A DNA stretch of 29,571 nucleotides from a virus, in the IMG/VR virus record IMGVR_UViG_3300037674_001397, positions 1 to 29,571 of that record; one strand, 5' to 3'. This document shows positions 10,241 through 24,577 of the stretch, piece by piece (positions within the stretch are counted from its first letter, which is position 1; the number at the start of each line of letters is the position of its first letter). The translations under genes were made by a program, and so were the position numbers. The notes under the pieces were generated by a model, which did not search any database, was not told the origin of the DNA, and worked only from the letters and a program-made list of their open reading frames with translations.

Positions 10241-12948
10241 TGGACATAAAACAAATAATAAGTAATGCAATAGACGAAGTATCATACAAAACTTCAGACG
10301 GTATGGTTAATCTTCATGACACGTATCACATGTATATGGTTCAAGAAGAATTAAAAAAGCATATCGATCCAGATGTTGTTAATTTGATTTTAGAGAAGGA
10401 TGAAGAAAAAAAGCCAGCCAAAGAACAAGATCCAGAAAAGTATCAATCTATTGGTGGATCAGGATATGCTCTTAAAGCAAAACTTGGTAAGGATTGGAAA
10501 ATAGGAGATGATGTTCCTGCTGGAATTCAAAGGTTTACTAAAGATGATAGCGGCAAATTCGTTCCTCAGGGTGAGAAAGAAGATCCTGAAGCGGGTGCAG
10601 GTGGAGAAAAAATGGATTTTACTCCGTCCGATGAGAAGGAAGAGGAAGAAGCAGATTTACAAAATGCAGATTTCGATCCTAAAAATGCTGATATAGAAAC
10701 AAATCCAAGAACTAGAAATAGTTTAGCCGATAAACTAGATTCAGTTGTTACACAAATTCCGTTTGAAAGTGATGAAGATAAAGCTGCGTTTCAAAGGGTT
10801 ATAGATGCCATTAGAAGTGGAGAAGAACCTTCAGAAGAAGATTGGAAAATATTTAACAAGTATGCTCGTGTTAAGGAAACTAGCGGCCAGTCAACCCCAG
10901 AATTTGCGATATACATTTGCAATACTACTCCAGGTGATTTTAGACAGGGTAGAAGAATTAAGGTTGAAATGCATACTAGTAAGAATGCACATGATCTACG
11001 AAGAAAGATGGAAGCTCAAGGTGCAAAGGCTGCTTCTGCAAGTACTACTGCTGGGAAGGCTCCACCAAAATTAGCGGGAAAATTAATAACTATGACTAAG
11101 ATGGCTAAGTCTAAACACGGTGGTGGAGTAAAAGAACATAAAGTTACCCGAAAACCAAAAACTGGTGGACCAGTACAGGAAGTTAGATTTGGAAATAGAG
11201 TTTTAAAGAGAATTCCAGAACCGGATGAAGACAAGTTAATTGCTGAAGTATTGGATAGGTTTGTTGAAATAATGAAAGGACCGCCCAAACGTAGTAAAAA
11301 GGATGCGACAAGATTAGCTAAGAAAAGAATCAAGACTATCAGACGAAATAACAAAAATATAGATCAGTACGAAAATATTGATGTAGTTGAAGAAGCTAGA
11401 TTAGTTAAGTTCGACCCGGATGATCAGGATTCTAGTACTCCGGAAGGAAGAGCAAAAGTTGCTAAAGAAGGACCTAAAAATTTAGCCGCTATGATGAGAG
11501 AGGAAATGGAAAAACATGGTCCTCTTACTGAAGCTGAAGAAGCAATGTTGAAACGATTAGAGGCATTGGGTGATATAGACGATCCAGCAGAATACGAAAA
11601 AGAGGCTATGAAATTATTAGCAGATATGCAAAAAGTTGAAAGTATGAGAAAGGGTGTTCCGGATATAGCTGAAGGCGTTATTATGTGTGTTATGAATAAG
11701 AAAGGTTTAGACTGTATAGCACCAGCTGGAGAAACGTATAAGGTAGCTGATTTGATTGTGTTCCCACCAGCAGATGATCCTGAGAATCCAAATTCGGCAG
11801 AATACATAGTTTGGTTGGAAAGTACAGGTGGATTAAGTGTTAAGTGGAAAGGTGGAGCGGCTTCAGGAGCGAGAGCAAAAATTGAAGTAACGGCATTTCA
11901 ACATGAAGAGACACAAGAACGGTGCACAAAGCTTTTAGATTTACATAATAATTTTATGGGAACTGCATCGCAACCATTAACACGAAAAAGAATTGATGAT
12001 GGAAAAGCAGAATTAGACGAACAAGAAAAATGGGCTAGAGAAAATGATTTACTAAATGATGATGATTACGATGAAAACGGTGATTTATTAATTCCACCCG
12101 CTAAAACTAAAACTTGTAAACAGTGGGCAAAGGATTCAATAGCGGATTGGCAAGCTAAAGGTAAATTACCGGCTGACTGTACACCAGCATTAAAAGCAAT
12201 GCGTCCGGAGGTAGAATGTTTAACTGCAGAGAATAAGAAATTACTTGAAGATGGATTAGAACAGTATTGTAGGGGTGGAGTAATGTTATCTCACATACAC
12301 AATAGGGATTTAGATTTTCAACCATACGGTAACGCAAATGGTACTGCTGATTCGTTAGAATTATCAAATGGAATAGACTGCGTAAATCACATGCACTTTC
12401 AACCAAATCCAGGTTTTGGCTTTAAAAAGGACGACAATGGAAATCACATTGTTAGACCCAATGCAGTTTATGCTGGACATTTAGAGAAAGTTTGTGATGA
12501 AAAACCAACTGTTGAAACAAAACCATATTCAGAACAACAGGCTTTAGATGAAACAGGAGAATATTTTGAAAATGATGGAGCTTATAACGCAATGCCTGGT
12601 TTAGCAGAGGATGAGGATGATTTAGCTCAACAAATTCAAAATGCTCCTGAAGAAATTCTGTCCGATGATGATTTAAGAAACTTGATTAACAGCGATGCTG
12701 GAGATGTATTAGATGCGGATGATCCCATGGCACATGCTGAAAAGAAAGCTATAGAATATGAAAAGAGCTGGGATTATATAACAAAAAATATTAAGAGTGG
12801 GAAACCACAAGAGGCACCAATAGTTGTAAGAGATAAGACAGGTCAAATGTGGTTATTAGCAGGAAATACTAGATTAATGGCTCAGACCGGCCATGGAAAT
12901 AGAATACCAGTAAAAATAATTGATTATGATGGGGTGTTTAAAACATGA
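10240..12948 (+). CDS. Giant polyvalent-type protein with ParB-like C-terminal domain (902 aa)
   Basis: An assembly of several regions: an N-terminal 40-residue helical segment (YKTSDGMVNLHDTYHMY); an acidic low-complexity linker (about 95-165); a basic region rich in Lys/Arg around 295-380, probably nucleic-acid binding; a middle with many Cys, Asp and Glu; and a C-terminal stretch at about 865-900 with PIVVRDKTGQMWLLAGNTRL, which matches the core of the ParB/sulfiredoxin-like fold (P-I-V-V, then L-x-G-N-T-R). Large multidomain phage proteins of this kind (polyvalent proteins) are often packed into the head and injected with the DNA, or help take over the host. That role is inferred. It ends on a true TGA stop that overlaps the next start (ATGA), showing that TGA is used as a stop in this genome. 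Confidence 0.45.
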   Translation: MDIKQIISNAIDEVSYKTSDGMVNLHDTYHMYMVQEELKKHIDPDVVNLILEKDEEKKPAKEQDPEKYQSIGGSGYALKAKLGKDWKIGDDVPAGIQRFTKDDSGKFVPQGEKEDPEAGAGGEKMDFTPSDEKEEEEADLQNADFDPKNADIETNPRTRNSLADKLDSVVTQIPFESDEDKAAFQRVIDAIRSGEEPSEEDWKIFNKYARVKETSGQSTPEFAIYICNTTPGDFRQGRRIKVEMHTSKNAHDLRRKMEAQGAKAASASTTAGKAPPKLAGKLITMTKMAKSKHGGGVKEHKVTRKPKTGGPVQEVRFGNRVLKRIPEPDEDKLIAEVLDRFVEIMKGPPKRSKKDATRLAKKRIKTIRRNNKNIDQYENIDVVEEARLVKFDPDDQDSSTPEGRAKVAKEGPKNLAAMMREEMEKHGPLTEAEEAMLKRLEALGDIDDPAEYEKEAMKLLADMQKVESMRKGVPDIAEGVIMCVMNKKGLDCIAPAGETYKVADLIVFPPADDPENPNSAEYIVWLESTGGLSVKWKGGAASGARAKIEVTAFQHEETQERCTKLLDLHNNFMGTASQPLTRKRIDDGKAELDEQEKWARENDLLNDDDYDENGDLLIPPAKTKTCKQWAKDSIADWQAKGKLPADCTPALKAMRPEVECLTAENKKLLEDGLEQYCRGGVMLSHIHNRDLDFQPYGNANGTADSLELSNGIDCVNHMHFQPNPGFGFKKDDNGNHIVRPNAVYAGHLEKVCDEKPTVETKPYSEQQALDETGEYFENDGAYNAMPGLAEDEDDLAQQIQNAPEEILSDDDLRNLINSDAGDVLDADDPMAHAEKKAIEYEKSWDYITKNIKSGKPQEAPIVVRDKTGQMWLLAGNTRLMAQTGHGNRIPVKIIDYDGVFKT

Positions 12949-13783: not shown

Positions 13784-14254
13784 ATGAATAAAAAACAAAT
13801 ACTTAGAAAAATAATTAGAGAAGAAATTAAGAAAGTTATTACTGAAGGAACTAGAGCACTAGTTGGTGTAGAGGCTCCTAATGGTAAAGTAACTGTTTTC
13901 TATACTCATTATGATGGTTACCCACAACATACTGGAAAAATGCTTAAGAAACATTATAGCAATTCTGGAATTGTTAAAAAACTCATGGCTCTCGGAAAAC
14001 ATGGTGTATCTTTCTTAGATAAGAGTATTAAAGGTGGTCCTGATCATAGCTTTAAAGATCCTAAAAAGGGTGAAACTATTTTCTACGGAAGAGATAGAGG
14101 CGAAAATGACAGAATGACATTCTCTTTTAGAGACAGGGAAAAAGCTGATTTTGATTGGGGTACTGAATATATGTATATTTGGAATATGAAAGAAAAGAAG
14201 TGGTACTATAAATCAGCCCATTCAAATCCACGAGATTGGACAGAGTTGAAATAA
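13784..14254 (+). CDS. Conserved-type phage protein with GYPxHxG motif
   Basis: A 156-residue soluble protein. The first 20 residues (KKQILRKIIREEIKKVI) are a basic amphipathic helix often seen at the N-terminus of small phage proteins. From residue 25 it reads ALVGVEAPNGKV, then HYDGYPQHTGKMLKKHY and KLMALGKHGVSFL; this pattern (a short strand pair, YDGYPxHxG, a helix ending in HY, then L-x-x-L-G) recurs in uncharacterised proteins of T4-like phages, and no function is known to me. The stop codon is followed at once by the TTG of the selenoprotein candidate, so the two are likely co-translated. Confidence 0.6.
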   Translation: MNKKQILRKIIREEIKKVITEGTRALVGVEAPNGKVTVFYTHYDGYPQHTGKMLKKHYSNSGIVKKLMALGKHGVSFLDKSIKGGPDHSFKDPKKGETIFYGRDRGENDRMTFSFRDREKADFDWGTEYMYIWNMKEKKWYYKSAHSNPRDWTELK

Positions 14255-14533
14255 TTGGCTTCTACAACCCAAAACATTAACGTTACACAAAACTCCATAA
14301 TAAAATTTGCAATTGAATATTGTATGCAGTGAAGTTATGAACCAAGAGCTTTCAGTTTGAGAGATGAATTAAGTACAGCATATTCAGAATCAGAAATAGA
14401 AATGATTGAAAGCAGCGGTGGAGTGTACAACGTATACGTTAACAATGATCAGATCTTCGATAAAATAGCATCAGATAGATTTCCAAATGATGGAGAGATT
14501 TTAGCATTAGTCGAACGATTTAATTTTATTTAA
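14255..14533 (+). CDS. Putative SelW/Rdx-like selenoprotein with in-frame TGA (Sec26)
   Basis: Read through the TGA at 14330-14332, this frame encodes 92 residues that match the SelW/SelT/Rdx thioredoxin-like family along their whole length: a strand FAIEYC, the redox motif C23-M-Q-U26, then SYEPRAFSLRDEL, a Gly-Gly strand SSGGVYNVYVNND and a C-terminal FPNDGEILALVERF. The TGA falls exactly where family members have the Sec or Cys of the CxxU/CxxC pair. A SECIS-like hairpin follows it. The start is inferred: TTG at 14255 directly after the previous stop, with only a weak AGAG before it and no in-frame ATG before the Cys; two other genes here seem to start with the same TTG-GCT. Family members are oxidoreductases of uncertain substrate. 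If TGA is a stop, only a 25-residue peptide is made and this is a broken gene. TGA ends two other genes here, so it is not a plain sense codon. Confidence 0.72.
14349..14363 (+). promoter_or_regulatory. Candidate bacterial SECIS hairpin
   Basis: CTTTC at 14349-14353 pairs with GAGAG at 14359-14363 (one G-U pair) around the five-base loop AGTTT. The loop starts 21 bases after the TGA, within the usual bacterial range, and has a G at its second position, as bacterial SECIS loops require. The lower stem is poorly paired, so this is a modest candidate that depends on the CxxU evidence. Confidence 0.4.
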
Positions 14534-14614: not shown

Positions 14615-15067
14615 AAAATTTGGAAAATGAAAGTGTGTGAGTTGATCGCTTGCACATGGGATTGACAGAAAAAATCCTTTCCAGAAGAGGGGGTTATTGT
14701 TGAGTAAATTCACCCGTGGTGGGTTCCTAAAGGCCGAAGTGCTGGCTCAAATGTGAGTAATAGGAAAACGACAGTTTAGAATTGAAAGATATGTCATGAA
14801 CTATACGAAAAGAGCTACTTTTCTGCTTCATTCTGAGAGAGTGATAGAAATATCGAGATTCTCAGCCTAGTGTTACCTAAAAACCCGTGAGTGATGGGGA
14901 AGGTGTAATGACAGGAGTTGTGTCCACTCCAGCGAAGTTAACCACTTTAAGGAGTAACCGATCGTAACTGATTGGGTTGTTAGCATGAAGTCAAATAAAA
15001 TCATTCATGACCCGTGACATTTGTAAGTGTATGCAAATCTTACATCCCCAATATATTTTCCAATTTT
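14615..15067 (+). ncRNA. Putative large structured phage RNA (about 450 nt)
   Basis: No open frame of any length fits here, but the strand is full of nested, well-paired helices. The ends pair with each other: 14615-14628 with 15055-15067 (13 pairs and one bulged base). Inside are 14633-14641/14649-14657; 14724-14729/14761-14766, enclosing a CTCA/TGAG hairpin at 14746-14757; 14833-14838/14860-14865, enclosing GATA-GAAA-TATC (a GNRA tetraloop) at 14843-14854; 14914-14918/14926-14930; 14956-14963/14970-14978; 14984-14988/15005-15009; and 15022-15027/15039-15044. GC content is visibly higher than in the flanks. A promoter sits before it and a long hairpin after it. It lacks group I intron, RNase P and tmRNA landmarks. 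Size and setting resemble the large ornate phage RNAs (GOLLD, ROOL), but I cannot match it to either. Confidence 0.6.
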
Positions 15068-15293: not shown

Positions 15294-16070
15294 ATGGACA
15301 TTGCCGCAATCAAAGCACGATTAGGCCAACTTCAACAATCAGCAAACAAGACTTCTTCCCTTTGGAAGCCAAGTCCTGGAAAATCTCAAATTCGAATCGT
15401 TCCGAATAAAGCAAATAAGGACAATCCGTTTATTGAGTTGTACTTTCATTATGATATGGGTGATAAATTTTATCTATCACCGATTTCGTTTGGAAGACCT
15501 GATCCAATTGAAGAGTTCGCAATTAAACTTAAAACATCCGGTAACGGGGATGATTACAAATTAGGAAGAAAAATCGAAGCCAAAATGCGTACATACGCCC
15601 CAGTAGTTGTACGTGGTGAAGAGAATGAAGGTGTAAGGTTTTGGGGTTTTGGTAAAATGGTTTACCAAGAACTTTTAAGCATCATTGCTGATCCTGATTA
15701 TGGTGATATTACTGATCCCGTTAATGGTAGAGACGTTGTAGTAGAATTTAAAACCAGTGAAGAAACTGGTCGTTCTTTTCCAACGACAACAATACGTGTT
15801 AAACCGAATCAAACACCGGTTACTGATAATCCAGATGTCATGAAGACAATTAAGGATACTCAGAAGAATATCACGGAAATCTACCAGGAGATGAGTTACG
15901 ATGATCTACATAAAGTACTTTCTGAATGGTTGAATCAAGATGGAGAAGGCGAAGATGATTCAGTTAGCGCTAAAAAAGTAGCGATTCCAGCGAAGTCGAC
16001 GAATGATAAGGTTAAAGAAGCTGCTACCACCGATGTGAGCAGTGCATTTGACGAATTATTCAATAACTAG
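15294..16070 (+). CDS. Single-stranded DNA-binding protein (T4 gp32-like)
   Basis: A 258-residue protein of the gp32 type: coats single-stranded DNA at the fork and in recombination and interacts with polymerase, helicase and recombinase. Seen: a basic N-terminal segment, SLWKPSPGKSQIRIVPNKA at 22-40, PFIELYFHYDMG, then FYLSPISFG with DPIEEFA, RTYAPVVVRGEE, and VYQELLSIIADPDYGDITDP, all in the order of the gp32 core. The C-terminus is acidic and ends in SSAFDELFNN, like the tail used for partner binding. The Cys/His zinc site of T4 gp32 is not seen. It has its own promoter, strong ribosome site and terminator, so it is probably a separate, strongly expressed unit. Confidence 0.9.
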   Translation: MDIAAIKARLGQLQQSANKTSSLWKPSPGKSQIRIVPNKANKDNPFIELYFHYDMGDKFYLSPISFGRPDPIEEFAIKLKTSGNGDDYKLGRKIEAKMRTYAPVVVRGEENEGVRFWGFGKMVYQELLSIIADPDYGDITDPVNGRDVVVEFKTSEETGRSFPTTTIRVKPNQTPVTDNPDVMKTIKDTQKNITEIYQEMSYDDLHKVLSEWLNQDGEGEDDSVSAKKVAIPAKSTNDKVKEAATTDVSSAFDELFNN

Positions 16071-17230: not shown

Positions 17231-18239
17231 CAATTACGCACAAATTTTAGACCAACTCAAAGACAACGTATCAAAGCCACAAAGTGTTAATGATCATGTC
17301 TTAATTGTAGACGGTCTAAATAACTTCATTAGAGCTTGGTCTGCTTCCCCTGCGACTAATTCTGATGGAGTTCATATCGGTGGAATGATAGGGTTTTTAC
17401 AAAGCGTCGGCTTAGCAGTAAGAACCCTTCTTCCAACGAGAGTTATAATAGTATTTGATGGTGCAGGTGGTTCTCAAAGAAGACGTAAAATTTACAGTGA
17501 ATATAAGGGAAATCGTAAACCACCAAAACGTCCTCATAGATTTCAGGGTATGGATGGAGAAAATGATGCTACAAGTATGCGCAGACAAATTAATAGATTG
17601 GCTCAATATTTGTTATTGCTTCCAGTAAACACAATTTCAATTGAAAAGATAGAGGCTGATGATAGTATAGGTTATATTACTACTAAATTATTACCGGATT
17701 CTAAGATTTCTATTATGTCTTCTGATAAGGATTTTTTACAACTGGTAAATGATAAGGTTTCAGTATGGTCTCCAACAAAAAAGATATTATACGATAGAAC
17801 AAGAGTAGAAGAAGAATTCGAAATGCCTCCAGAAAATATGATTTATTACAGAATAGTAGATGGTGATAAGTCAGATAATATACCAGGAATTAGAGGATTT
17901 GCTCTTAAAACTATTTTGAAAAAAAATCCATTTTTGAAAAGTGAGAAGATAAGTAATATAGAAGAATATATACAAAGGTCAGGTTTTGATAGTTATGAAG
18001 ATTTACTACGTAGAAATTACACATTGATGCAATTGGATGATGTGAATATTTCTGGTAGTGCTAAATTAAAAATACTGGATGTAGTTAATTTGCTCCCTCA
18101 TAGGTTGATAAAATACAAGATTCATAGGTTGTTTTTAGAAGATAAAATAAATCAAGCTATTAGAAATCCTGATGTATGGTTACAAAATACGTTTAATAGG
18201 TTAGACATGGTTATTGAAAATGACTCCTCCAATAAGTGA
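17223..18239 (+). CDS. 5'-3' exonuclease / RNase H (T4 rnh-like flap nuclease)
   Basis: A PIN/FEN-type nuclease that removes RNA primers and 5' flaps during lagging-strand synthesis. Acidic metal-binding motifs appear in order: VLIVDGLNNF (near residue 30), VIIVFDGAGGSQRRR with KGNRKPP, KIEADDSIGYI, SSDKDFLQLV and DGDKSDNIPGIRGF, the last being the helix-hairpin-helix entry. The length of 338 residues is close to T4 RNase H. It begins inside the end of uvsX and stops at a TGA that lies inside the start of the helicase gene. Confidence 0.88.
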   Translation: MRSNYAQILDQLKDNVSKPQSVNDHVLIVDGLNNFIRAWSASPATNSDGVHIGGMIGFLQSVGLAVRTLLPTRVIIVFDGAGGSQRRRKIYSEYKGNRKPPKRPHRFQGMDGENDATSMRRQINRLAQYLLLLPVNTISIEKIEADDSIGYITTKLLPDSKISIMSSDKDFLQLVNDKVSVWSPTKKILYDRTRVEEEFEMPPENMIYYRIVDGDKSDNIPGIRGFALKTILKKNPFLKSEKISNIEEYIQRSGFDSYEDLLRRNYTLMQLDDVNISGSAKLKILDVVNLLPHRLIKYKIHRLFLEDKINQAIRNPDVWLQNTFNRLDMVIENDSSNK

Positions 18240-19611: not shown

Positions 19612-21585
19612 ATGGCCGAGCCATTTGTTTTATCAGAAGGATTTATAAAGAAATATAAATTAAAAAAACCACCATTTGGGTTTAATGGTCTTGGGGAATT
19701 AGTTTATATGCGAACATATTCTAGAATTAAAAAAGACGGTAAAAATGAAATGTGGTGGGAAACTGTCCGAAGAGTTGTAGAAGGCACATATACCATGCAA
19801 AAAAATCATATTGATAGTTATCAGCTTGGATGGAATCCATGGCAAGCGCAGAGATCAGCTCAAGAAATGTATGATAGAATGTTTAATATGAAGTTCTTAC
19901 CACCTGGTCGTGGATTGTGGGCGATGGGTACTTCTATTACATCTGAAAGAGGTTTATACGCTGCATTAAATAATTGTGCATTTGTTTCAACTGCTACTAT
20001 AAAGGATGATTACGCAAAACCATTTACTTTTTTAATGGACGCAAGCATGTTGGGTGTAGGAGTTGGTTTTGATACAAAGGGTGCAGATCAAATTTTAGTT
20101 AAAGGTCCAAATAAAGATAGGACCGATGATGAATACATAATACCAGATACTAGAGAGGGCTGGGTTGAATCATTAAGATTATTGATGGAGAGTTACTTTC
20201 ATGCGACTGCTCCTATGGAATTTGATTATTCAAAAATTAGATCAGAAGGCGAACCAATAAGGGGTTTTGGTGGAGTTTCAAGCGGTCCTGAGCCGCTTAT
20301 AGAATTACATGAAACAGTTAGAAAGGTTTTAGATTCACAATTAGGTGAACCAATTTCAGTTACAACAATCGTAGATGTAATGAATCTCATTGGTAAATGC
20401 GTAGTAGCGGGAAATGTTCGTAGAACTGCTGAAATAGTTTTTGGTGACCCGAACTCAGATGAATATTTAGATTTAAAAAATTATGATGTCAATCCACACA
20501 GGGAACAATATGGTTGGACTTCAAATAATTCAGTATATGCAGAATTAGGTATGGATTATACGGAAACGTGTGCACGTATTATAAAAAATGGAGAACCTGG
20601 ATTTGCATGGTTAAAAAATATGAAAAAGTATTCTCGTATGAAAAATGGCGGAGATAACAAAGATCATAGAGCATCTGGTGGAAATCCATGTTTAGAACAA
20701 ACGTTAGAATCGTATGAGTTATGTTGTCTTGTAGAAACATTTCCAAACAATCATGATTCATTAGATGATTATAAACGGACATTAAAATATGCATATTTAT
20801 ATGCCAAAACAGTAACACTTGGTAAAACTCATTGGTCAGAAACAAATAGAGTTATGTTAAGAAATAGACGAATTGGATGTTCAGTAAGTGGTGTTGCACA
20901 ATTTATTACCAACAGAGGATTAGATACACTAAAGAGGTGGCTAAATAAAGGATATGACGTAATACAGGAGTGGGATTGTATGTATTCAGATTGGTTTGCA
21001 ATTCCTAAATCAATAAAAACTACTTCAGTAAAACCTTCAGGTACAGTTTCATTATTAGCAGGAGCGACTCCAGGATTACATTACCCTGAGAGTCGTTTTT
21101 ATATTAGACGGGTACGGTTGGCTAAAAATTCAGATTTATTAGAACCATTGAAAAAAGCAAATTATAATATTGAACCAGCTTTTGGATCTGAAAGATCGAC
21201 GGTTGTTGTTGAAGTACCCATAGATTGTGGAGATGGTATAAGAACGGCTCCAGAATTAACAGTATGGGAACAATTCAGTTTAGCCGCGTTTTTACAACGA
21301 CATTGGGCAGATAACCAAGTAAGTTGTACTGTAACGTTTGATCCAGAAACAGAAGGAAATCAATTACCAGCTGTGTTAAATTATTTTCAATATCATTTAA
21401 AGGGTATAAGCATGCTTCCAAGGTTAGATACTGGAGCATATAAACAAATGCCTTATGAATCAATTGATGAAAAAACATATAAGAAAATGTTATTAAAATT
21501 AAAAAAATTAAGTTTTCGAAAGGTTAAAGGAAACGAAGCCATTGTTGAACGATTTTGCGATGGTGATGTTTGCGAGGTCTTATAA
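19612..21585 (+). CDS. nrdJ: Adenosylcobalamin-dependent (class II) ribonucleotide reductase, monomeric type
   Basis: Makes deoxynucleotides from ribonucleotides, using adenosylcobalamin (B12) to form the radical. Seen: LPPGRGLWAMGT near 97; a first redox Cys at 122 (NNCAF); NPCLEQTLESYELC at 358-371, holding the radical Cys 360 and Glu 362; KPSGTVSLLAGATPGLH, the phosphate-binding loop; and a C-terminal Cys pair CDGDVC at 649-654 that re-reduces the enzyme. NPCxEQ and the 657-residue length fit the monomeric triphosphate reductase type. TAGGAG precedes the ATG by a normal distance. A class II enzyme needs no oxygen and no second subunit but ties the phage to the host's B12 supply. Confidence 0.9.
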   Translation: MAEPFVLSEGFIKKYKLKKPPFGFNGLGELVYMRTYSRIKKDGKNEMWWETVRRVVEGTYTMQKNHIDSYQLGWNPWQAQRSAQEMYDRMFNMKFLPPGRGLWAMGTSITSERGLYAALNNCAFVSTATIKDDYAKPFTFLMDASMLGVGVGFDTKGADQILVKGPNKDRTDDEYIIPDTREGWVESLRLLMESYFHATAPMEFDYSKIRSEGEPIRGFGGVSSGPEPLIELHETVRKVLDSQLGEPISVTTIVDVMNLIGKCVVAGNVRRTAEIVFGDPNSDEYLDLKNYDVNPHREQYGWTSNNSVYAELGMDYTETCARIIKNGEPGFAWLKNMKKYSRMKNGGDNKDHRASGGNPCLEQTLESYELCCLVETFPNNHDSLDDYKRTLKYAYLYAKTVTLGKTHWSETNRVMLRNRRIGCSVSGVAQFITNRGLDTLKRWLNKGYDVIQEWDCMYSDWFAIPKSIKTTSVKPSGTVSLLAGATPGLHYPESRFYIRRVRLAKNSDLLEPLKKANYNIEPAFGSERSTVVVEVPIDCGDGIRTAPELTVWEQFSLAAFLQRHWADNQVSCTVTFDPETEGNQLPAVLNYFQYHLKGISMLPRLDTGAYKQMPYESIDEKTYKKMLLKLKKLSFRKVKGNEAIVERFCDGDVCEVL

Positions 21586-21679: not shown

Positions 21680-24409
21680 ATGAAACGTAATCTAATAGTA
21701 TCACTTATGATGATGACTGGATTGTTTGCTCAATCTGTTGTTGGAGTTGTAACTGATGCGAACTCAAATCCATTGGCTGGAGCAAACGTAGTAGTCGAGG
21801 GTACAGATAACGGTGGTGTAACCGATGTAGATGGAAAATACACCATTGATGTAGGTGCTTCTGGCGACTACGATTTAACTGCTTCATTCATTGGATATTC
21901 AACAGTAACTAATGCAGTTACCGTTGATGACATAGTTGGAACAGTTAATTTCCTGTTGGAAATTGACGCTGTTTCAATGTCAGCATTGGAAGTCTTGGCT
22001 TCTAGGGCTGACGAAAATACACCGGTTGCATATACTACCGTGGGTAAAGAGGAAATGGAAATGAGACTAGGTTCTCAAGACATTCCAATGTCTCTTAATA
22101 TGACACCTAGTGTCTATGCTACTCAACAAGGTGGTGGTGCGGGCGATGCTCGTATAAATGTGAGAGGTTTTAATCAGCGAAATGTTGCGGTTATGATCAA
22201 CGGTGTTCCACAAAATGATATGGAAAATGGTTGGGTTTACTGGTCTAATTGGGATGGAGTTGCAGACGCAGCGCATTCAATTCAGATGCAAAGAGGTTTG
22301 TCTGCAGTAAATTTAGCTACCCCTTCCATTGGTGGAACTATGAACATCTTAACCGATCCTGCATCCCATGATAAGGGAGGCAAGTTCAAACAAGAAGCTG
22401 GTGAAGGTGGTTTTTTAAAGACTACCCTTAATTACAACTCTGGTCTTATTGATGATAAGTTAGCTATAAGCGGAACAATCGTACGTAAGACTGGTGATGG
22501 GATTGTTGATGGTACTTGGACAGATGCGTGGGCATATTACTTAGGTAGTAGCTACCAGATGAACGAAGATCATCGACTAGAACTGTACGCGATAGGTGCA
22601 CCACAACGACATGGTCACAACCTATACAAACAGAATATTGCTACTTATTCTCAAGAGTTAGCTGGAAGTATCGATGGATATGATGCTACCGCTTTCGCAG
22701 AAGGTGAGAAATTCGAGCATGAAGCTGGTAGGTTGTTCAACCAAAACGTGGCACCAGTCGATGCATCATATAGTGGACAACAGTATTACTATATGTACGG
22801 TGCAAAGACTGTTGATAGGCACGATCCAAATTCTCTAAATGAAAGAGAGAATTTTTTCCATAAGCCTTTAGTCAACTTAAACCATTTTTGGTCGATAAGT
22901 GATGACGCAAGGTTAAGTTCAGTAGCATATTGGAGCGGTGGTTCCGGTGGTGGTACAGGAACTTATGGTAGCGTAAGTAGATTCCCTGCGGTAGAAGACA
23001 ATGCTTGGTACGCAAGCTCTCCGTGGACTTGGGACTGGAATGGCGAAATTGCTCAAAACTCAGCAAACGTTGATTCAGCTTGGTCTGATACAGAGAACAG
23101 GTCAACAGGCATACTTCGTAACAGTATCAATCGTCAGAATACTTACGGCTTGATTTCTAAACTAAGTTACGATGTTAGTGACGAGTTAGAAATCCAAGTG
23201 GGTATTGACTGGAGAGCTGCCGGTATAGAACACGCACGTGAAGTCCGTGATCTACTCGGTGGTGATTACTATGTAGACTATGCTGATGATAACTTTGAAG
23301 ACGGTAAAGTTGTTAAGTTAGGTGATGAGATCGCCTATCATAATGAGACTACTGTTGATTGGTTTGGTACATTTGCACAGGGTAAGTACACGACTGATAA
23401 GTTTAATGTATATGGTATGGGCGGTTTGTCCACAATCAAATACTCTTATCAGGATCACTTCACTGTTGCAGATGAGAAGATCGAAGCAGATGCTATTACA
23501 ACTTTTCAATTGAAAGGTGGAGGGGTGTATAACCTCGACGATAGAATGTCAGCATTCGTAAATGCTGGATACGTTCAGAAACCGCCTATCATGGATAATG
23601 TAATCTACTACGATGGAACAGTTTCATCAGATCCAGACAATGAGAAGTATCAAAGCTTCGAATTTGGTGGTAAGTACAATAGCGACAAAGTTAATGTCAA
23701 GCTAAGTTCATATAATACTAAGTGGATTGACAGAAACATTGTTAAAAATGTATCTACCGGACAAGGTGATAGTGGTGATACTGATCTTATCTTCCTGCGT
23801 GGTGTTAAACAAGATCACAGCGGTTGGGAAGTTGAAGGTAAAGTAGCACTTCATGACATGGTTGATCTAGATCTTGTACTCAGTAAAGGCAAATGGGAAT
23901 TTGTTGATGATGCAGAAGGTTCATACGAAGAGCAAGAGTTTAATGAAAACGGTGAAGTCATTGGTATGATGTCAACCGATTACGCATACGCTCTTAAGGG
24001 ACTTATGGTTGGTGATATGCCACAAACAGCTTATGCTGGTGGTTTAACAGTAAAGCCAATGGCAGGTCTAGAGATACAAGGACTATACAGAATGTATGAT
24101 GACAATTATGCAGATTGGAGTCCTGATTCACGTGAGATCGATGGTGATGCAGATAGAGATCAAGTTTGGAAAGCTCCAGGGTACGGAAGATTAGATCTTC
24201 ATGCCTCATACAGGCTTCCAAAAATTGCTGGTCTTGATATGACAATATCAGCACATGTTTTCAATGCATTGGATGAAGTATATGTTCAGGATGCAGTTGA
24301 TAACAGTCAGTACAATGGGTTTGGTGATAAAATGCACCTAGCTCATAACGCGGAAGTATTTCTTGGGACACCAAGATACGCTAACGTAGGAATTTCAGTT
24401 AACTTTTAG
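21680..24409 (+). CDS. TonB-dependent outer-membrane receptor with carboxypeptidase-regulatory-like domain
   Basis: Outer-membrane active transporter driven by TonB. I place the start at ATG 21680: AGAAGGAGA lies just before it, and it gives a proper signal peptide, MKRNLIVSLMMMTGLFAQS, that the longer frame would bury. Then a carboxypeptidase-regulatory-like domain (about 20-105: VVGVVTDANSNPLAGANVVV, DVDGKYTIDV), a plug domain (about 120-235, with RINVRGFNQRNVAVMINGVP and TPSIGGTMNIL), and a barrel ending in ANVGISVNF with the aromatic C-terminus of outer-membrane proteins. The length of 909 residues is full. The form is that of Bacteroidota/Marinimicrobiota receptors. Base use differs from its neighbours (more G+C, CGT Arg codons), suggesting recent gain from a host. 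Substrate unknown. Confidence 0.9.
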   Translation: MKRNLIVSLMMMTGLFAQSVVGVVTDANSNPLAGANVVVEGTDNGGVTDVDGKYTIDVGASGDYDLTASFIGYSTVTNAVTVDDIVGTVNFLLEIDAVSMSALEVLASRADENTPVAYTTVGKEEMEMRLGSQDIPMSLNMTPSVYATQQGGGAGDARINVRGFNQRNVAVMINGVPQNDMENGWVYWSNWDGVADAAHSIQMQRGLSAVNLATPSIGGTMNILTDPASHDKGGKFKQEAGEGGFLKTTLNYNSGLIDDKLAISGTIVRKTGDGIVDGTWTDAWAYYLGSSYQMNEDHRLELYAIGAPQRHGHNLYKQNIATYSQELAGSIDGYDATAFAEGEKFEHEAGRLFNQNVAPVDASYSGQQYYYMYGAKTVDRHDPNSLNERENFFHKPLVNLNHFWSISDDARLSSVAYWSGGSGGGTGTYGSVSRFPAVEDNAWYASSPWTWDWNGEIAQNSANVDSAWSDTENRSTGILRNSINRQNTYGLISKLSYDVSDELEIQVGIDWRAAGIEHAREVRDLLGGDYYVDYADDNFEDGKVVKLGDEIAYHNETTVDWFGTFAQGKYTTDKFNVYGMGGLSTIKYSYQDHFTVADEKIEADAITTFQLKGGGVYNLDDRMSAFVNAGYVQKPPIMDNVIYYDGTVSSDPDNEKYQSFEFGGKYNSDKVNVKLSSYNTKWIDRNIVKNVSTGQGDSGDTDLIFLRGVKQDHSGWEVEGKVALHDMVDLDLVLSKGKWEFVDDAEGSYEEQEFNENGEVIGMMSTDYAYALKGLMVGDMPQTAYAGGLTVKPMAGLEIQGLYRMYDDNYADWSPDSREIDGDADRDQVWKAPGYGRLDLHASYRLPKIAGLDMTISAHVFNALDEVYVQDAVDNSQYNGFGDKMHLAHNAEVFLGTPRYANVGISVNF

Positions 24410-24418
24410 TTGAGATTA

Positions 24419-24491
24419 GGGGCTGTAGCTCATTTGGGAGAGCGCCGCACTTGCACTGCGGAGGTAGTAGGTTCGATCCCTATCAGCTCCA
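24419..24491 (+). tRNA. tRNA-Ala(UGC)
   Basis: A full cloverleaf of 73 bases: acceptor GGGGCTG pairing with CAGCTCC, D-arm GCTC/GAGC, anticodon stem CCGCA/TGCGG around loop CTTGCAC (anticodon TGC), T-loop TTCGATC, discriminator A. The CCA end is not encoded. It starts nine bases after the receptor stop codon. Confidence 0.95.
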
Positions 24492-24496
24492 CTATT

Positions 24497-24568
24497 GACC
24501 CCGTCGTCTAGTGGTTAGGACATCAGGTTTTCATCCTGGGAACAGCAGTTCGATTCTGCTCGGGGTTA
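24497..24568 (+). tRNA. tRNA-Glu(UUC)
   Basis: A full cloverleaf of 72 bases: acceptor GACCCCG with CGGGGTT, D-arm GTC/GAC, anticodon stem TCAGG/CCTGG around TTTTCAT (anticodon TTC), T-arm AGCAG/CTGCT with loop TTCGATT, discriminator A. CCA is not encoded. It lies five bases after tRNA-Ala. GAA and GAG are frequent in the phage genes, which fits a supply role. Confidence 0.95.
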
Positions 24569-24577
24569 CAAAAAAAG

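Follow-up and report, generated by a model that had tools for sequence, protein, structure and literature searches.

Open reading frame 14255-14533 of a viral DNA stretch of 29,571 nucleotides (IMG/VR record IMGVR_UViG_3300037674_001397, positions 1 to 29,571; hereafter the window) is interrupted by a single TGA, which raises the question of whether this marine phage carries its own selenoprotein or merely a broken gene. The preliminary description, based on the sequence alone, proposed a SelW/Rdx-like selenoprotein with TGA at the U of a CxxU motif, translated by the selenocysteine machinery of the host. Our analysis confirms the observation and supports this interpretation, although Sec insertion itself is inferred from sequence and not directly proven. 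The features of the gene are as follows.

14255-14533, plus strand: selW coding sequence, 92 residues with UGA read as selenocysteine, with a TTG start abutting the upstream stop TAA
14321-14323, plus strand: Cys23 codon (TGT) of the CxxU motif
14330-14332, plus strand: in-frame TGA, the selenocysteine codon (Sec26)
14349-14363, plus strand: bSECIS-type hairpin with a 6-bp stem and apical GUU at 14355-14357, 20-34 nt counted from the U of UGA

The codon preceding the frame (14252-14254) is an in-frame TAA, so TTG at 14255 is the first possible start. The closest relative, found on viral contigs L010/L015, begins with GTG at the same place and shares the N-terminus (VASTTSNIDVTT..., consensus MASTTxNIxVT). 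With TGA read as Sec, the frame contains C-M-Q-U at residues 23-26. Profile searches placed the protein in the Rdx/SelW family far above cut-off (Pfam PF10262, 66.5 bits versus 22.6, E 2.5e-18; TIGR02174 CXXU_selWTH, 54.8 versus 34.2). The closest profile, NF041051 SelTWH_Campy, scored 86.5 bits, just below its cut-off of 88, and we therefore did not file the protein under this equivalog. Solved SelW-related proteins matched by sequence. Moreover, an AlphaFold2 model built on 28 relatives (pLDDT 86.6) predicts a thioredoxin-like fold, and all 22 PDB matches with E<=0.001 are Rdx/SelW-family structures, the best having TM-scores by query length of 0.69-0.77. In the model, C23 and U26 lie between the first strand (residues 16-23) and the first helix (residues 29-42), as in thioredoxin-fold redox sites. 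The viral structure library contained no SelW-like match with E<=0.001.

A nonsense mutation or assembly error in a Cys-type SelW gene, that is, a decaying host-derived gene, could also produce a frame broken by a single TGA, and many Rdx proteins elsewhere have Cys. However, two contigs from other IMG/VR records are identical over about 1.5 kb around the TGA. We next scanned 2.9 million IMG/VR viral contigs for the pattern EYCxxU[Y/W]xPRA with TGA, which gave 19 contigs. One of these (L011) is a chance match, whereas the other 18 encode Rdx frames on both sides of the TGA and represent 11 distinct sequences. The same scan with TGT/TGC gave one hit (L023), which is not an Rdx. A scan with a second pattern that does not touch the Sec codon gave 11 loci, ten on contigs already read as TGA and a new one (L194) that also has TGA. 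Thus, these scans revealed no viral Cys version. Downstream codons evolve with dN below dS in diverged viral pairs (L006/L010, 0.19 versus 1.45; L006/L008, 0.16 versus 0.39), while the very close pair L019/L022 is uninformative. Taken together, these data make an error or a pseudogene very unlikely.

Altered codes appear to occur in some phages, and a reassignment of TGA in this phage or its host (for example, to Trp or Gly) would make the codon unremarkable. This seems highly improbable. As the preliminary description stated, TGA serves as a stop at 12946-12948 and 18237-18239, which accounts for 2 of 22 window genes, and 16 of 45 long ORFs of the identical 70-kb contig (IMGVR_UViG_3300021442_000581) end in TGA, with only short extensions if read through. 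No other in-frame TGA was seen in the listed genes, and the position is the Sec site of the family. The 70-kb contig of the same phage also carries glycosyltransferases, nucleotide-sugar epimerases, a GtrB-like protein and a radical SAM protein, suggesting glycan modification.

The hairpin downstream of the UGA behaves as expected of a bacterial SECIS. In 26 viral and Neomarinimicrobiota sequences, 91.7% of cells pair, with a covariation score of 0.696 against 0.213 (sd 0.032) in shuffles (0/500), and the signal is sharply lost when the alignment is slid by one column. The viral sequences alone give 0.396 against 0.216 (0/500). These shuffle counts are not probabilities because the sequences are related. 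The isolated hairpin of the window is not stable against dinucleotide shuffles (minimum free energy z 0.56, not significant), and its support comes from covariation and from a synonymous-codon control, in which only 2% of variants encoding the same peptide fold as well for the window, with a median of 1% for the viral set and 9% for the host set.

We then asked whether selW belongs to the phage genome. The gene is flanked by phage genes on both sides, including those for gp32, UvsX, DnaB, DNA polymerase, a baseplate wedge protein and a tape measure protein. The neighboring features discussed here are as follows.

13784-14254, plus strand: upstream phage gene (phrog_1987), a syntenic neighbor in L010/L015
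14534-15293: gap between selW and gp32, holding a structured RNA resembling manA RNA (best match 14875-15043, plus strand)
15294-16070, plus strand: gp32-like ssDNA-binding protein, the downstream neighbor in all four syntenic lineages
19612-21585, plus strand: class II (B12-dependent) ribonucleotide reductase with a Cys-rich C-terminus (FCDGDVCEVL), a candidate redox partner (inferred)
21680-24409, plus strand: full-length TonB-dependent receptor (Pfam Plug/CarbopepD_reg), used as host marker
24419-24569: tRNA-Ala(TGC) and tRNA-Glu(TTC), side by side just downstream of the TonB receptor gene

In four related phage lineages (the window, L010/L015, L012/L014 and L018), selW sits directly upstream of the gp32-UvsX-exonuclease block, and UvsX is 78-88% identical to that of the window. 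In other viral lineages (L004, L006, L008 and L019), no window genes were found next to selW. The manA-like RNA (RF01745) scored 40.4 bits (E 7.7e-9), below the gathering score of 55.2; the gap is kept in L010, L012 and L018, and 36 of 66 predicted pairs show changes on both sides.

SelB, SelD and tRNA-Sec were not found in the phage contigs, all of which are fragments. No SelB or SelD match was detected, and the tRNA-Sec matches were sub-threshold and coincided with tRNA-Cys/Tyr/Ala/Glu/Gly. The phage TonB-dependent receptor is 60-68% identical over its full length to proteins of many Neomarinimicrobiota (SAR406) genomes, suggesting a host in this phylum; a 67% identical copy is present on L016, another viral contig with Sec-SelW. 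This assignment rests on one horizontally mobile gene, so that the host is probable rather than shown. In 245 genomes of the phylum, SelB is over cut-off in 166, tRNA-Sec in 153 and Rdx in 143, and every listed Rdx match that covers the CxxU site has exactly one TGA. Of 12 genomes chosen for good TonB hits, 10 have tRNA-Sec over cut-off and 8 have SelD over cut-off, each SelD itself with an in-frame TGA (e.g. G132:C11:16125-17048, a Neomarinimicrobiota genome locus).

The Neomarinimicrobiota SelW carries the UGA and hairpin in the same register but is 37-47% identical to the window protein. Twelve viral SelW sequences form one side of a branch (88/73; 90% of bootstrap trees), apart from Neomarinimicrobiota SelW, in a tree with few columns and weak forks; a larger, quicker tree placed L004 apart. 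A direct origin from Neomarinimicrobiota SelW is therefore not supported, and the gene may come from elsewhere or be old. The tree suggests, but does not prove, one virus-borne lineage passed among phages rather than repeated recent capture.

Taken together, we conclude, with a probability of about 0.92, that the gene encodes a phage selenoprotein of the SelW/Rdx type. In this model, host SelB carrying host Sec-tRNA(Sec) recognizes the hairpin at 14349-14363 and decodes the UGA at 14330 as selenocysteine during infection, giving a predicted thioredoxin-fold protein with a C23-x-x-U26 redox site. The sequence data establish the family, the single TGA at the Sec position, the conservation of TGA and the downstream frame across a viral clade, selection on the hairpin and the phage context; Sec insertion by host machinery is strongly inferred in the absence of mass spectrometry or reporter data.

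The role of the protein is only weakly inferred, and the probability given above does not extend to it. Rdx proteins are thought to be thiol-based oxidoreductases of unknown exact function (PMC10650576). The most likely role is a selenol/thiol oxidoreductase made for the replication phase, either keeping replication or nucleotide enzymes reduced, such as the class II ribonucleotide reductase in the same gene block, or protecting against oxidants. The reductase lies in the examined stretch in three of the four syntenic lineages, and no glutaredoxin or thioredoxin was seen in five related contigs, but the link to the reductase is one of proximity only. It is about as likely as not that the protein is mainly antioxidant or signaling, without any link to nucleotide metabolism, given that mammalian SelW binds glutathione (PMC10650576) and that no window genes were found next to selW in other viral lineages; the position beside the replication block in four lineages and the lack of a detected Trx or Grx argue against this view. 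Because Sec decoding probably competes with termination, the UGA might alternatively act as a selenium sensor, with translation stopping at residue 25 when the host lacks selenium and the phage modulating its programme accordingly. This seems unlikely, since no regulatory architecture was seen and the full frame is under purifying selection. More tentatively, a virus-only lineage of Sec-containing SelW may have spread among marine phages and become fixed beside the replication block in one phage clade, so that productive infection of SAR406-like bacteria would depend on host selenium metabolism, with SelW as the phage's dedicated reductant, for instance for its class II ribonucleotide reductase.

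Bacterial SelW-like selenoproteins share with the phage protein the family, the CxxU motif, a similar length and a SECIS-type hairpin within the frame downstream of the UGA. The phage protein differs in being encoded by a phage within a virus-only clade, and the window and L010/L015 proteins add an N-terminal extension. SelW-like proteins are the most abundant marine selenoprotein family in the GOS data (427 Sec versus 56 Cys; PMC2398784), and no mention of phage or virus origin was found in that paper. A later GOS study noted many viral copies for RNR II, plastocyanin and Cu-Zn SOD and stated that the other families examined lack or have very few viral sequences (PMC9402790). A 2019 review names molluscum contagiosum GPX1 and fowlpox GPX4 as the only proven virus-encoded selenoproteins (PMC6769590). 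These are likewise host-type selenoprotein genes carried by viruses that rely on host Sec machinery, but they are glutathione peroxidases of eukaryotic viruses with a eukaryotic SECIS, whereas here a bacterial virus carries SelW and an in-frame bacterial SECIS. Two viral SelW queries found no match among the 50,697 annotated phage records of INPHARED, and our literature searches, which mostly did not cover subscription journals and preprints, found no phage selenoprotein; hits on C. difficile phages and selenoproteins were only reference-list entries. A conserved phage selenoprotein would show that bacterial viruses can depend on host selenium, that standard gene callers truncate such genes at UGA, so that phage selenoproteins are likely missed, and that an in-frame UGA plus SECIS can serve as a host clue for viruses of uncultured bacteria.
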